NCBI GenBank assembly: GCA_029210175.1
Contig: JARGPL010000037.1
Coordinates: 62,001-126,000, forward strand
DNA from: Minwuia sp.
GTDB lineage: Bacteria > Pseudomonadota > Alphaproteobacteria > Minwuiales > Minwuiaceae
Reading direction: 5' to 3'
Length of the DNA stretch: 64,000 nucleotides
Numbering within the stretch: the first letter of the stretch is position 1; every line of letters starts with the position of its first letter. Both the position numbers and the translations under genes were made by a program. This document shows, piece by piece, positions 18,044 through 38,192 of this stretch. The notes below the pieces were generated by a model. The model searched no databases. It had not been told where the DNA came from and worked only from the letters and a program-made list of their open reading frames with translations.

Positions 18044-19236
18044 CCGGCAAGCCTGCCGATCCAGCGTCTGAATGGGCGCTGGAAACCCGCATGGTGCGCG
18101 GCGGTATCGAGCGGTCCGGCCATGGTGAGACCAGCGAAGCACTGTTTCTGAATTCCGGCTTCGTCTACGAGACGGCGGCGGATGCGGAGGCACGTTTCAA
18201 GGGCGAACAGGATGGTTTCGTCTATTCCCGCTATGGCAACCCCACGGTTGCGATGTTCGAGGAACGGATGCGCCTGCTGGAAGGGGCCGAGGCCTGTTTC
18301 GCCACCGGGTCCGGCATGGCTGCGGTCTTTGCTGCCCTCATGAGCCAGTTGAAGGCCGGCGACCGCGTCGTGGCCTCCCGCGCGCTGTTCGGCAGTTGCC
18401 ACCACATCCTGACCCAGATCCTGCCGCGCTATGCCATCGAGACCGTGCTCGTGGACGGCACCGATCTCGACCAGTGGGCGGAGGCGCTGAAGCCCGGCGC
18501 GGCGGTGGTGTTCCTCGAAACCCCGGCGAACCCGACCCTGGAACTGATCGACTTGCGCGCGGTGTCCGACCTGGCCCATGCGGCGGGCGCGAAGGTGATC
18601 GTCGATAACGTCTTTGCCACCCCGGTGCTGCAGCGCCCGATGGAACATGGCGTTGATATCGTTGTCTATTCGGCCACCAAGCACATTGATGGTCAGGGGC
18701 GCGTGCTGGGCGGCGTCGTGCTGTCGAGCAAGGATTTCGTCGATAACACCTTGATGCCGTTCCTGCGCCACACTGGCCCGGCCCTCAGCCCCTTCAACGC
18801 CTGGGTGATGCTGAAGGGGCTTGAGACCCTGACGCTGCGGGTGGAACGCATGGTGGAGAACACGGCCAAGGTCGCCGCCCTGTTGTCAGGGCAGCCGGGC
18901 GTGGCGCGGGTCATCTGGCCCGGCGCGGACGATTTCCCTCAGAAGGCGCTGCGGGAACGCCAGATGTCCGGTGGCGGGACCCTGATCGCGTTCGAGGTTG
19001 CGGGTGGCAAGGCACCGGCGTTCCGATTCCTTGACCGGCTGCGGATCATCGACATCTCCAACAATCTGGGCGATTCAAAGAGCCTGATCACCCACCCGAC
19101 CACCACGACCCACCGCGCCATGTCAGCCGAAGACCGCGCCCGCATCGGTATCGACGAGGGGTTGTTGCGTCTGTCCGTCGGCCTGGAAAACCCGGAAGAT
19201 CTGAAGGCCGATCTGGCACAGGCCCTGGCGGGCTGA
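18040..19236 (+). CDS. metZ: O-succinylhomoserine sulfhydrylase
   Basis: 398-residue PLP enzyme of the Cys/Met metabolism family that combines O-succinylhomoserine with sulfide to give homocysteine. The PLP lysine is Lys214 in VVYSATKHIDGQGRVLGG. Other signatures are FVYSRYGNPTV, ETPANPTLELIDL and the C-terminal HPTTTTHRAMSAEDR with RLSVGLENPEDL. The ATG at 18040 overlaps the rhodanese stop by four bases; the frame is open further upstream, but that part is shadow. It ends the sulfur operon and is convergent with meaB eleven bases away. Confidence 0.94.
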   Translation: MTGKPADPASEWALETRMVRGGIERSGHGETSEALFLNSGFVYETAADAEARFKGEQDGFVYSRYGNPTVAMFEERMRLLEGAEACFATGSGMAAVFAALMSQLKAGDRVVASRALFGSCHHILTQILPRYAIETVLVDGTDLDQWAEALKPGAAVVFLETPANPTLELIDLRAVSDLAHAAGAKVIVDNVFATPVLQRPMEHGVDIVVYSATKHIDGQGRVLGGVVLSSKDFVDNTLMPFLRHTGPALSPFNAWVMLKGLETLTLRVERMVENTAKVAALLSGQPGVARVIWPGADDFPQKALRERQMSGGGTLIAFEVAGGKAPAFRFLDRLRIIDISNNLGDSKSLITHPTTTTHRAMSAEDRARIGIDEGLLRLSVGLENPEDLKADLAQALAG

Positions 19237-35309: not shown

Positions 35310-36731
35310 CTAACTGCTGTTCTCGGGCAGCCATGCAGTCGCCGCAAGTCCGCCTGTGTCACGGTTGGCCAGGGCCAGATCACCGCCCAGGCGCCGGAAC
35401 ACGTCGCGGGCGAGGGCCAGGCCCAGACCTGATCCCCCGGTTTCCCGATTGCGGGACGTCTCGACGCGATAGAACGGCTGAAACACCTTGTCCAGTTCGT
35501 CCTCCGGCAGGCCGGGACCATTGTCGGCGACGGTCAGCGTCGCGCGACCTCCCCCCTTGACCAGCAACAGCCGCACCTCGCCACCGCCATAGCGCAGCGC
35601 GTTCTCCACCAGATTGCCAACCGCGCGTTTCAGCGCCACGGGACGCCCATCGACAGGGAACCGCTCCGGCCCGTCAAAGGCCACGTCCTGGCCGCGTGTG
35701 GCGCAGTCTTCGGCCAGGTCACGCAGCAGTCCGGCCAGATCGATCCGGGTGATTGCCTCCGTCGCCTGATCGCCGCGGATGAACCCAAGCGCCTGATCGA
35801 CCATCTGCTGCATGTCTTCGATGTCGCCGATGGCGCGCTGCTGCTGGTCCGGGTCCTCGATGAATTCCGCGCGCAACCGCAGACGGGTCAGGATGGTCTT
35901 CAGATCATGGCTCAAGGCCGCAAGCATCAGGGTGCGATCGTCGATCAGGCGCTTGATGCGGGTCTGCATGCGATTGAATGCCGTCGCGGTCTTGCGCAGT
36001 TCTCTCGGTCCCTGCTCATCCAGCGGCGGGGCATCCACATCCAGACCCAGCCGGTCAGCCGCCATCGCCAGTTCACGCAGGGGACGGGTCGCGCGCCGCG
36101 CCGCCCAGATGGCGAAGATGATGATCAGCAGCCCCGTGCTGACAATCCAGAACAGGCCACGGAACGCCCATCGAAACGCCAGACGGTCGGTCGAGACCAG
36201 GAAATGCACCCAGGTGCCGTCGGTCAGGGTGGTGGCGACGATCAGCTTTCGCCGGCTCGGCGTCAGGTCCGGTTCCGGTGGCCCGCCCGGGTGCAGGACC
36301 CGCCCCCGCTTGCCTTCATCGTCGTCATCATCATCCAGCGGTACGATGACCATGGGACGGCCACGCAGGGCTGGCAGGTTGCGGTCCACGAAACGACGGA
36401 TGCCGCGCTGCAGATCTTCATGGTGGTCGTGTTCATGGTCGTGGGCCTGGCGTGGCGGGTGACTGCGGATTCGCACGCCGAGTGTCGGGCCGGAGATCAC
36501 CCGTGCCAGTTCTCGCCGCTCCGCCATTGGCGTCCGGTCCAGCAGGACAACGATCTGTTCCGTCCGGCGCGCGGTGTGGTCGAGCAACTGCCGCGCCGTC
36601 TCGGTCCTGTCCTTGGCATACCAGCCGATGGTGCCCGCCAGCGCGATGGCCAGCAGCAGCATCAGGATCAGCGCCAGACGGCCCGCGATGCCGCCGACAT
36701 GCAGCCGGTTCAGGAAGCGGTGACGTCGCAT
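35310..36731 (-). CDS. Two-component sensor histidine kinase with His/Asp-rich periplasmic loop
   Basis: 473-residue EnvZ-type kinase: TM1 about 17-37, periplasmic domain 38-188, TM2 about 192-211, HAMP, then H-box ALSHDLKTILTRLR (phospho-His about 275) and HATPase boxes NLVENALRYGGG, ADNGPGLPED and GGSGLGLALARDV. The H-box has Ile where many kinases have Pro. The periplasmic loop carries HDHEHDHHED (97-106) and six consecutive Asp plus Glu (133-139), a likely metal-binding surface. It overlaps the response regulator gene by 22 bases. Metal or envelope-stress sensing is an inference. Confidence 0.9.
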   Translation of the reverse strand: MRRHRFLNRLHVGGIAGRLALILMLLLAIALAGTIGWYAKDRTETARQLLDHTARRTEQIVVLLDRTPMAERRELARVISGPTLGVRIRSHPPRQAHDHEHDHHEDLQRGIRRFVDRNLPALRGRPMVIVPLDDDDDDEGKRGRVLHPGGPPEPDLTPSRRKLIVATTLTDGTWVHFLVSTDRLAFRWAFRGLFWIVSTGLLIIIFAIWAARRATRPLRELAMAADRLGLDVDAPPLDEQGPRELRKTATAFNRMQTRIKRLIDDRTLMLAALSHDLKTILTRLRLRAEFIEDPDQQQRAIGDIEDMQQMVDQALGFIRGDQATEAITRIDLAGLLRDLAEDCATRGQDVAFDGPERFPVDGRPVALKRAVGNLVENALRYGGGEVRLLLVKGGGRATLTVADNGPGLPEDELDKVFQPFYRVETSRNRETGGSGLGLALARDVFRRLGGDLALANRDTGGLAATAWLPENSS

Positions 36732-37438
36732 GCGAAGTAATACCCCCCATGGCGAACGGTCTTGAACATGCGCGGGTTCTTCGGGTCTTCACCCAGCTTG
36801 CGGCGCAGGCGGCTGAGGGCGACATCGATGGAGCGATCGAATGGGCCCAGCGACCGGCCTGTGGTCAGGTCCGCCAGCTGGTCACGACTGAGGATCTGCT
36901 GCGGGCGTTCGGCAAAGGCTTCCAGCATGTCGAATTCGCCCGATGTCAGGGTGACAAGCGTGCCCTCGGGGTCACGCAGTTCACGGGCGGCGAGGTCGAT
37001 CTGCCAGCCCTCGAACGTCAGTACACGCGGGCGGTCCTGTGCCGCGCCATCCGGTTCGCCCATGTCTGCCGACCGGCGCAGCACCGCGCGGATGCGCGCC
37101 AGCAGTTCGCGGGGGTTGAACGGTTTCGGCAGATAGTCGTCCGCACCGACCTCCAGGCCCACGATACGGTCGGCTTCCTCCCCCAGGGCCGTCAGCATGA
37201 TGATGGGTGTCTTCACACCGCTGCCGCGCAATCGGCGGCAGATCGCAAGTCCGTCTTCCCCCGGCATCATCAGGTCCAGCACCAGCAGGTCGAAGCGGCC
37301 GCTGGCGAGTTTCGCGTCCATGTCACGCCCATCGCGGGCGGTGTCGACGCGCAATTCGTGACGCACCAGAAACCGCGCCAGCAGGTCGCGTATTTCCCGG
37401 TCGTCATCGATGATCAGCAGATGTGGTGTCCGTTGCAT
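36710..37438 (-). CDS. OmpR-family response regulator
   Basis: 242 residues. Receiver domain with acidic pocket LLIIDDDREIRD, phospho-acceptor Asp in FDLLVLDLMMPGEDG, and the conserved Lys in VGADDYLPKPFNPREL. The C-terminal winged helix reads LVTLTSGEFDMLEAFAERPQQILSRDQLADLT and ends IDVALSRLRRKLGEDPKNPRMFKTVRHGGYYF. The ATG at 37438 is chosen because the receiver begins ten residues later. It is the first gene of the regulator-kinase operon and is divergent from a Spy-like gene. Confidence 0.95.
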   Translation of the reverse strand: MQRTPHLLIIDDDREIRDLLARFLVRHELRVDTARDGRDMDAKLASGRFDLLVLDLMMPGEDGLAICRRLRGSGVKTPIIMLTALGEEADRIVGLEVGADDYLPKPFNPRELLARIRAVLRRSADMGEPDGAAQDRPRVLTFEGWQIDLAARELRDPEGTLVTLTSGEFDMLEAFAERPQQILSRDQLADLTTGRSLGPFDRSIDVALSRLRRKLGEDPKNPRMFKTVRHGGYYFACDVTAS

Positions 37439-37482
37439 GCCCCTGAATATATGCCTGAAGCCGGCAGGTCGGGCAGCATTTC

Positions 37483-37536
37483 GTAACCGCTTGTAACCAT
37501 CGCAGGCCCCGTTACGCGCCGTTACCGACCGTTGCA
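37483..37536. promoter_or_regulatory. Candidate response-regulator binding sites (10-bp-phased repeats)
   Basis: In the 220-bp region between the divergent regulator and Spy-like genes, GTAACC occurs at 37483 and 37493, and GTTAC at 37511 and 37521 with GTTGC at 37531. Each set repeats every ten bases, one helical turn, and the two sets are in opposite orientation. This is the usual pattern for OmpR-family dimers binding in tandem. Autoregulation and control of the Spy-like gene are inferred. Confidence 0.55.
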
Positions 37537-37658
37537 CCCGACGGGTCGCAGCGCCCGAACCACAAGCCCATGTTCAGGAGGCGCCGGGATGATCGCCGAT
37601 GAGGATCATCTGGCCAGGCTCTTCCGGTCGATGTTCGGCCCAACCAAGGAGAATTCAC

Positions 37659-38192
37659 ATGAACCGTCGCCTCAAGATAATGCTGATCGGTGTCGTCGCT
37701 GCCATGGGCATCACCGGCGGTGCCGCCGTGCTGCACGCCCAGTCCGGTGACGGCTGGAAACACGACGCCCGGATGGGTGGACACCATGGCGGCATGAAGT
37801 ACGTCTGCGAGAACGGCAGCGAGCGGCTGGACGACGTGATCACGTTCGCTGACATTCGCCTCGGCATCCGCGATGACCAGCAGGCCACGTGGGACAGTTT
37901 TGCAGCTTCCGTCCGCGCCGGTGGTCAGGACCTGTTGAGTGCCTGTGACAGCATGGACGTCATGCGCGGTGGCAATGCACCGGAACGCCTGGCGGAGATG
38001 GAAGTGATCATGGAAAAGGCGCTGGGCGCGCTGAAGCAGATCCGCACATCGTTCGACCCGCTCTACACCGTGCTGGATGAGGATCAGAAAGCCACGCTGG
38101 AGCGTCTGACCCATCGCCGCCATGGCCGCTACGACGACGACGACGACCATGATCGCGACGATCATGATCGCGACGATCACCGCAAGGGCTGA
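37659..38192 (+). CDS. Spy/CpxP-like (LTXXQ-type) periplasmic protein with Asp/His-rich tail
   Basis: 177 residues. A signal peptide (MNRRLKIMLIGVVAAMGITGGAAVLHAQ) leads to a helical periplasmic domain. The segment FADIRLGIRDDQQATWDSFAASV and the later VLDEDQKATLERL are the two Spy/CpxP-like repeats. HHGG near residue 42 and a C-terminal tail of about 17 residues rich in Asp and His (158-174) suggest divalent-metal binding. AAGGAG lies eight bases before the ATG. The position opposite the two-component operon suggests that it is a target and feedback partner of that system, like CpxP with CpxAR. Confidence 0.75.
   Translation: MNRRLKIMLIGVVAAMGITGGAAVLHAQSGDGWKHDARMGGHHGGMKYVCENGSERLDDVITFADIRLGIRDDQQATWDSFAASVRAGGQDLLSACDSMDVMRGGNAPERLAEMEVIMEKALGALKQIRTSFDPLYTVLDEDQKATLERLTHRRHGRYDDDDDHDRDDHDRDDHRKG

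Follow-up and report, generated by a model that had tools for sequence, protein, structure and literature searches.

An Asp/His-rich sensor loop and a divergent Spy-like partner in a Cpx-like two-component locus of Minwuia: a candidate cation-tuned envelope circuit

A three-gene locus in the 64,000 nucleotides of Minwuia DNA analyzed here (the window) encodes an EnvZ-like kinase and an OmpR-like regulator, both on the minus strand, and a divergent LTXXQ/Spy-like protein on the plus strand. The best reading of the core of this system, judged from its conservation in seven of seven Minwuia genomes and the footprinted array between the divergent genes, is autoregulation combined with CpxP-like feedback. 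The trio resembles Cpx; what sets it apart are its Asp/His-rich segments and the matching of these segments between sensor and partner across the family. We give roughly even chances to a fuller interpretation, an autoregulated Cpx-like envelope two-component system (TCS) in which the kinase's Asp/His loop and its partner's tail are putative divalent-cation sites tuning the association of the two proteins. The features of the locus are as follows.

35310..36731, minus strand: EnvZ/CpxA-like sensor histidine kinase P0002, 473 aa (Pfam, NCBIfam)
36318..36335, minus strand: Asp6 run DDDDDD, kinase residues 133-138, in the loop before the DGxW strand (sequence)
36414..36443, minus strand: HDHEHDHHED cluster, kinase residues 97-106, in the TM1-TM2 periplasmic loop (sequence and codons)
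36710..37438, minus strand: OmpR-family response regulator, 242 aa (Pfam, NCBIfam)
37483..37497, plus strand: operator-like direct repeat GTAAC-N5-GTAAC, 10-bp period (exact pattern, alignment)
37511..37535, minus strand: second array in the opposite orientation, three half-sites GTAAC/GTAAC/GCAAC, 10-bp period (alignment)
37659..38192, plus strand: Spy/CpxP-like periplasmic protein P0001, LTXXQ family, 177 aa (PF07813)
37782..37787, plus strand: HH pair, Spy-like residues 42-43, within the N-terminal MGGHHGGM (sequence)
37806..37946, plus strand: span from C50 to C96 of the Spy-like protein (alignment of 14 LTXXQ partners)
38133..38180, plus strand: C-terminal Asp/His tail DDDDDHDRDDHDRDDH, Spy-like residues 159-174 (sequence)

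The regulator reading frame overlaps the start of the kinase gene, and the Spy-like gene lies 220 bp away on the opposite strand. The kinase consists of TM1, a periplasmic domain of ~155 residues, TM2, HAMP (41.8 bits in Pfam), HisKA (30.6 bits) and HATPase_c (86 bits), and the regulator contains Response_reg (105.6 bits) and Trans_reg_C (73.6 bits) domains. Their best NCBIfam matches are the EnvZ and OmpR equivalogs, yet both scores, 225.5 and 280.5 bits, are below the cut-offs of 415 and 331; the CpxA and CpxR models gave 166.3 and 178.7 bits and did not reach their cut-offs of 486 and 341. The Spy-like protein matches PF07813 with 45.9 bits, over the curated cut-off of 24.3, and its gene is the sole LTXXQ match in its own genome. 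All seven Minwuia genomes contain the trio in this divergent layout, as do a member of another genus (G002), with two LTXXQ genes in tandem, and a member of another family (G009), with one. The first of the tandem paralogs in G002 (L096:2981-4360) has an additional hydrophobic stretch and an RHRHRHRHH run.

The locus shares with the CpxRA-CpxP systems of enterobacteria and pseudomonads a divergent exported LTXXQ protein, an OmpR-family regulator, a CpxA/EnvZ-like kinase and a direct-repeat operator 5' of the LTXXQ gene (PMC5063474, PMC6737893). In Cpx, CpxP is strongly induced and restrains CpxA via the CpxA sensor domain (PMC6737893). The Minwuia system differs from Cpx in its Asp/His segments, in a kinase and regulator that are nearer to EnvZ and OmpR, and in its box, which is GTAAC-N5-GTAAC instead of GTAAA-N5-GTAAA, with identical spacing. 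The LTXXQ gene is divergent from the kinase-regulator operon, as in CpxRA-CpxP; we do not file the trio as Cpx because two defining features, scores above the CpxA/CpxR cut-offs and a GTAAA operator, are absent.

Intergenic alignment revealed a footprint, TCGTAACCGCTTGTAACC followed by GTTAC-N5-GTTAC-N5-GTTGC, in a surrounding background that has diverged. The array is kept in the seven Minwuia genomes and has a variant form in G002. Of the three exact GTAAC-N5-GTAAC sites in the 4.1-Mb genome, two lie between the kinase-regulator and Spy-like genes. Among loci with an LTXXQ partner, 15 of 22 carry the box just 5' of the regulator gene (3.8 per kb versus 0.011 per kb elsewhere). Because the footprint is conserved and the box is enriched 5' of the regulator, these sequence comparisons lend good support to the idea that the regulator controls both its own expression and that of the Spy-like gene. 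A CpxP-like feedback circuit had been proposed in the original prediction; the divergent Spy/CpxP-like gene and the conserved operator-like array bear out its architecture, and the feedback itself we infer.

The third exact box, GTAACAGTGGGTAACAAAGAGTGAC, is located between ftsZ and lpxC (G000:C9:23021-23045; locus L112:1501-1525), directly 5' of a promoter-like TTGAGC-17-TATAAA, and overlaps an inverted repeat (GCGCTGTCAGGG/CCCTGACAGCGC). It is present and nearly invariant in all seven Minwuia genomes. We did not accept lpxC as a proven target: similar half-sites occur 5' of lpxC in G001, which has no close ortholog of the kinase or the Spy-like gene, and a paralogous regulator may therefore own this box. 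The probable paralog loci had no box of their own. On contig C37 of G002, boxes at L193:14111-14125 and 18886-18900 lie 5' of genes for serine palmitoyltransferase and fatty acyl-AMP ligase, both within 16 kb of the TCS, and a search of G002 for LpxC gave no PF03331 match. G002 is possibly a lipid A-free, sphingolipid-making bacterium whose lipid genes are under the TCS regulator. A one-mismatch box scan for a wider regulon was discarded, as its matches were mostly within long reading frames, and the GTAAC array is distinct from the CenR box (TGA-N8-TGA).

The Asp/His tail and the HH pair near the N-terminus of the LTXXQ-like protein were found where the original prediction had placed them, as were the HDHEHDHHED cluster and the six-Asp run of the kinase loop. 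The Spy-like protein has a Sec-type signal (by inspection) and degenerate LTxxQ motifs, IRDDQ (residues 70-74) and LDEDQ (139-143). Across 14 aligned alphaproteobacterial LTXXQ partners, Q143 is invariant and Q74 almost so, C50 and C96 are both invariant, and there is no conserved His; the His/Gly-rich N-terminal stretch varies between orthologs. The two Cys residues suggest a possible disulfide and a disulfide-locked or redox-sensitive Spy-like subfamily. In the tail, 13 residues of a 15-residue window are His or Asp (H/D), a density matched by none of 20000 residue shuffles. The underlying DNA is in part a 15-bp tandem repeat with an ACG run; therefore, slippage probably contributed to the origin of the tail. 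An AlphaFold monomer model built on a shallow alignment has helices at residues 43-68, 72-104, 107-138 and 141-152, which form a confident core (43-152), and the tail lies outside this core with low pLDDT. A sequence search of solved structures with P0001 gave no match, and fold matches obtained through VIA-align were generic helical bundles and uninformative.

In the kinase loop, the best 15-residue window contains 8 H/D, which was matched by 483 of 20000 residue shuffles, so taken alone its H/D density is modest. Windows with at least 8 H/D per 15 residues occurred in 3 of 258 sampled genes of the same genome: the kinase, the Spy-like protein and one unrelated gene. The Asp run lies in a disordered stretch (residues about 132-160) between strands of an alpha/beta periplasmic domain, as modeled by AlphaFold with a whole-model pLDDT of 66.9 and a shallow alignment. 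HDHE-type clusters of varying form are found in five of the seven Minwuia orthologs, the four besides the present one carrying DHDHE/SDHEH variants. Both loop clusters are missing in two Minwuia genomes (G003 and G007, 60% identical), and the Asp/His loop is missing in G002; the circuit is kept in all three, so these clusters are not essential to it.

We searched 386 alphaproteobacterial genomes and one further order by profile and collected gene neighborhoods, which yielded 89 kinase loci; the order-level search around G071 covered one genome. The position immediately preceding the DGxW strand, where the Asp6 run lies, is a hot spot for inserts. Asp/His-rich inserts recur there in G009, G071 and many sister-clade lineages (e.g., DDDGDHDHHDDHLDDDDDD in L280), and an Asp/His loop has undergone at least 11 state changes on a quick tree of the 89 kinases. 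In loci that lack LTXXQ, the divergent partner is often an exported protein bearing two to four EF-hand motifs (24 of 89 loci, called by motif, with a Pfam check on two), and many of these proteins end in Asp/His-rich C-terminal tails. Members of this exported family with Asp/His-rich tails, divergent from EnvZ-like TCSs, include L251:2491-3081, L258:2666-3313, L266:6478-7011, L280:6315-6827 and L283:2697-3323. No common box was found among the EF-hand-partner loci. In the first 71 loci, the Asp/His loop goes with the EF-hand partner (8/18 versus 5/53, Fisher p 0.0024, with kinship ignored); most loci that combine the two are in one part of the tree. A third type of divergent partner, at L261:2698-3147 and L268:6462-6911, is a short exported protein beside Asp/His-loop kinases, with a His/Met-rich N-terminal front and a GNDNLxVGxI-type stretch.

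The original prediction had also stressed that sensor and partner match in Asp/His composition. With one row per clade, loop and partner-tail richness are correlated (Spearman 0.63; permutation p 0.001 within partner type), and 46 kinase-partner pairs gave the same Spearman value of 0.63, with phylogenetic contrasts of r 0.37 (sign-flip p 0.010). The contrasts are stronger for EF-hand pairs (r 0.66, p 0.003). These p values are to be read with thresholds and a 35-residue tail picked after viewing examples, EF-hands called by motif and the quick tree in mind. The match thus recurs across Alphaproteobacteria beyond phylogenetic expectation; it is not significant in LTXXQ pairs alone (Spearman 0.34, p 0.12; contrasts r 0.19, p 0.23). 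When 250 other genes from these loci were examined, their tails gave values against the loop of 0.23 and 0.12, neither of them significant, and all 15 of the 424 neighborhood genes with at least 9 H/D per 15 residues encode the kinase or the divergent partner. Counter-examples are L203, with a rich loop and a plain tail, and L316, with a plain loop and an acidic tail. The independent starred-branch pairs available for a sign test numbered four, too few for use.

A strong rival, and the main one, is an ordinary Cpx-like envelope-stress circuit, in which the Spy-like protein would act both as a chaperone and as a feedback inhibitor that misfolded proteins titrate, the Asp/His segments being near-neutral slippage products in tolerant loops. 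We regard it as a real, if minority, possibility. Its layout and box are Cpx-like, G003 and G007 keep an intact circuit without the clusters, the tail contains repeat DNA, and the LTXXQ-only correlation falls short of significance. Acidic low-complexity tails can equally serve solubility or disorder. A Sinorhizobium meliloti relative responds when TolC, whose loss is an envelope stress, is missing: mutation of tolC induces the CpxP-like, regulator and kinase genes SMb21562-SMb21561-SMb21560 69-, 27- and 14-fold (PMC2912261). This set, too, combines an alphaproteobacterial CpxP-like protein with a CpxR/CpxA-like pair and a Cpx-type box upstream (PMC2912261); compared by description, it differs in being one predicted operon rather than divergent and in having no reported Asp/His segments. 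However, neutral slippage leaves unexplained why H/D-rich windows are concentrated in exactly the kinase and its partner, and why loop and tail covary beyond descent with no link to other genes.

Another reading is a sensor for resistance to transition metals (Cu, Zn, Ni, Co) with a metal-buffering Spy/CnrX/ZraP-like protein, which we consider improbable. ZraP and CnrX, metal proteins of the Spy superfamily, are helical and periplasmic, with flexible His-rich ends. The Minwuia protein, in contrast, has an Asp-rich, disordered tail, and its His residues lack conservation among the aligned partners. In favor of this reading are weak Foldseek matches to CnrX (probability 0.8-0.85, E about 1), the His residues in both segments and, in Kiloniellales (L006 and L007), a Met/His-rich insert, HMRHMRDMGM, that takes the place of the Asp/His loop beside a Met/His-rich divergent protein. 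That exported protein is Met/His/Gly-rich and has no Pfam match over cut-off. The ions Cu, Zn, Ni and Co, named in the original prediction, have nevertheless lost ground: the segments are Asp-dominated, sister-clade partners are EF-hand proteins, and the heavy-metal models TIGR01386 and TIGR01387 scored far under their cut-offs (105.5/292.55 and 143.2/279.2 bits). No gene for efflux or resistance was recognized in the adjoining reading frames (33-41 kb), and neither these frames nor the family models support a heavy-metal resistance locus.

Equally doubtful is an electrostatic sensor whose acidic loop, close to the membrane, would respond to cationic antimicrobial peptides, pH or lipid charge without any specific site for a metal. 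The presence of an acidic loop in a periplasmic domain that is short, the analogy to PhoQ and the recurrence of acidity itself across relatives fit this idea, but it leaves His enrichment and EF-hand partners unexplained.

The evidence instead suggests divalent cations, for instance calcium or magnesium, as the signal that the circuit would read; Ca/Mg-like ions are preferred over Cu, Zn, Ni and Co because the segments are Asp-dominated and the sister-clade partners are EF-hand proteins. In the proposed mechanism, the phosphorylated regulator would bind the GTAAC array and raise expression both of the operon that encodes it and of the Spy-like gene, and the Spy-like protein would feed back on the periplasmic domain of the kinase, as CpxP does on CpxA. 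With less certainty, the Asp/His loop and the partner tail would serve as weak multivalent sites for Ca/Mg-like divalent cations, possibly tuned toward Zn by their His residues. Cation occupancy would then set kinase-partner association, so that the circuit would read both the cation status and the integrity of the envelope, much like the acidic patch of PhoQ. That periplasmic patch, which binds Mg, Mn and Ca (PMC4473727), is one precedent for this reading, and the tolC-responsive S. meliloti set is another. PhoQ-PhoP with MgrB resembles the proposed Minwuia circuit in its acidic periplasmic segment and small-protein feedback, the latter only proposed in Minwuia; it differs in that Minwuia has a Spy-like partner unrelated to MgrB and carries its acidic segment as a disordered, variable insert. 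Another alphaproteobacterial EnvZ-like envelope TCS is EssS-EssR of Brucella, whose mutants are sensitive to EDTA, polymyxin and SDS (PMC10746171). The Minwuia genome probably has its own EssRS in a widespread paralog of ~36% (G000:C5:43926), which lacks LTXXQ and EF-hand partners.

More tentatively, these loci may belong to an alphaproteobacterial family of EnvZ-like cation sensors in which the loop and a fold-swappable divergent partner (LTXXQ, EF-hand or Met/His-rich) share metal-ligand chemistry and co-evolve, a secreted cation buffer thereby setting the sensitivity of its own sensor. A periplasmic EF-hand protein of Caulobacter has been reported to connect calcium with stress regulation (PMC13171946), and none of the papers in the collection that we searched combines EF-hand, CpxP and histidine kinase. 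If true, this idea would provide a ligand class for a large uncharacterized group of alphaproteobacterial envelope sensors. It would also represent a case in which a bacterial sensor and its secreted partner stay matched in ligand chemistry despite replacement of the partner fold, from Spy-like to EF-hand, and would suggest a reason why many CpxP/Spy-like and periplasmic EF-hand genes adjoin kinases.
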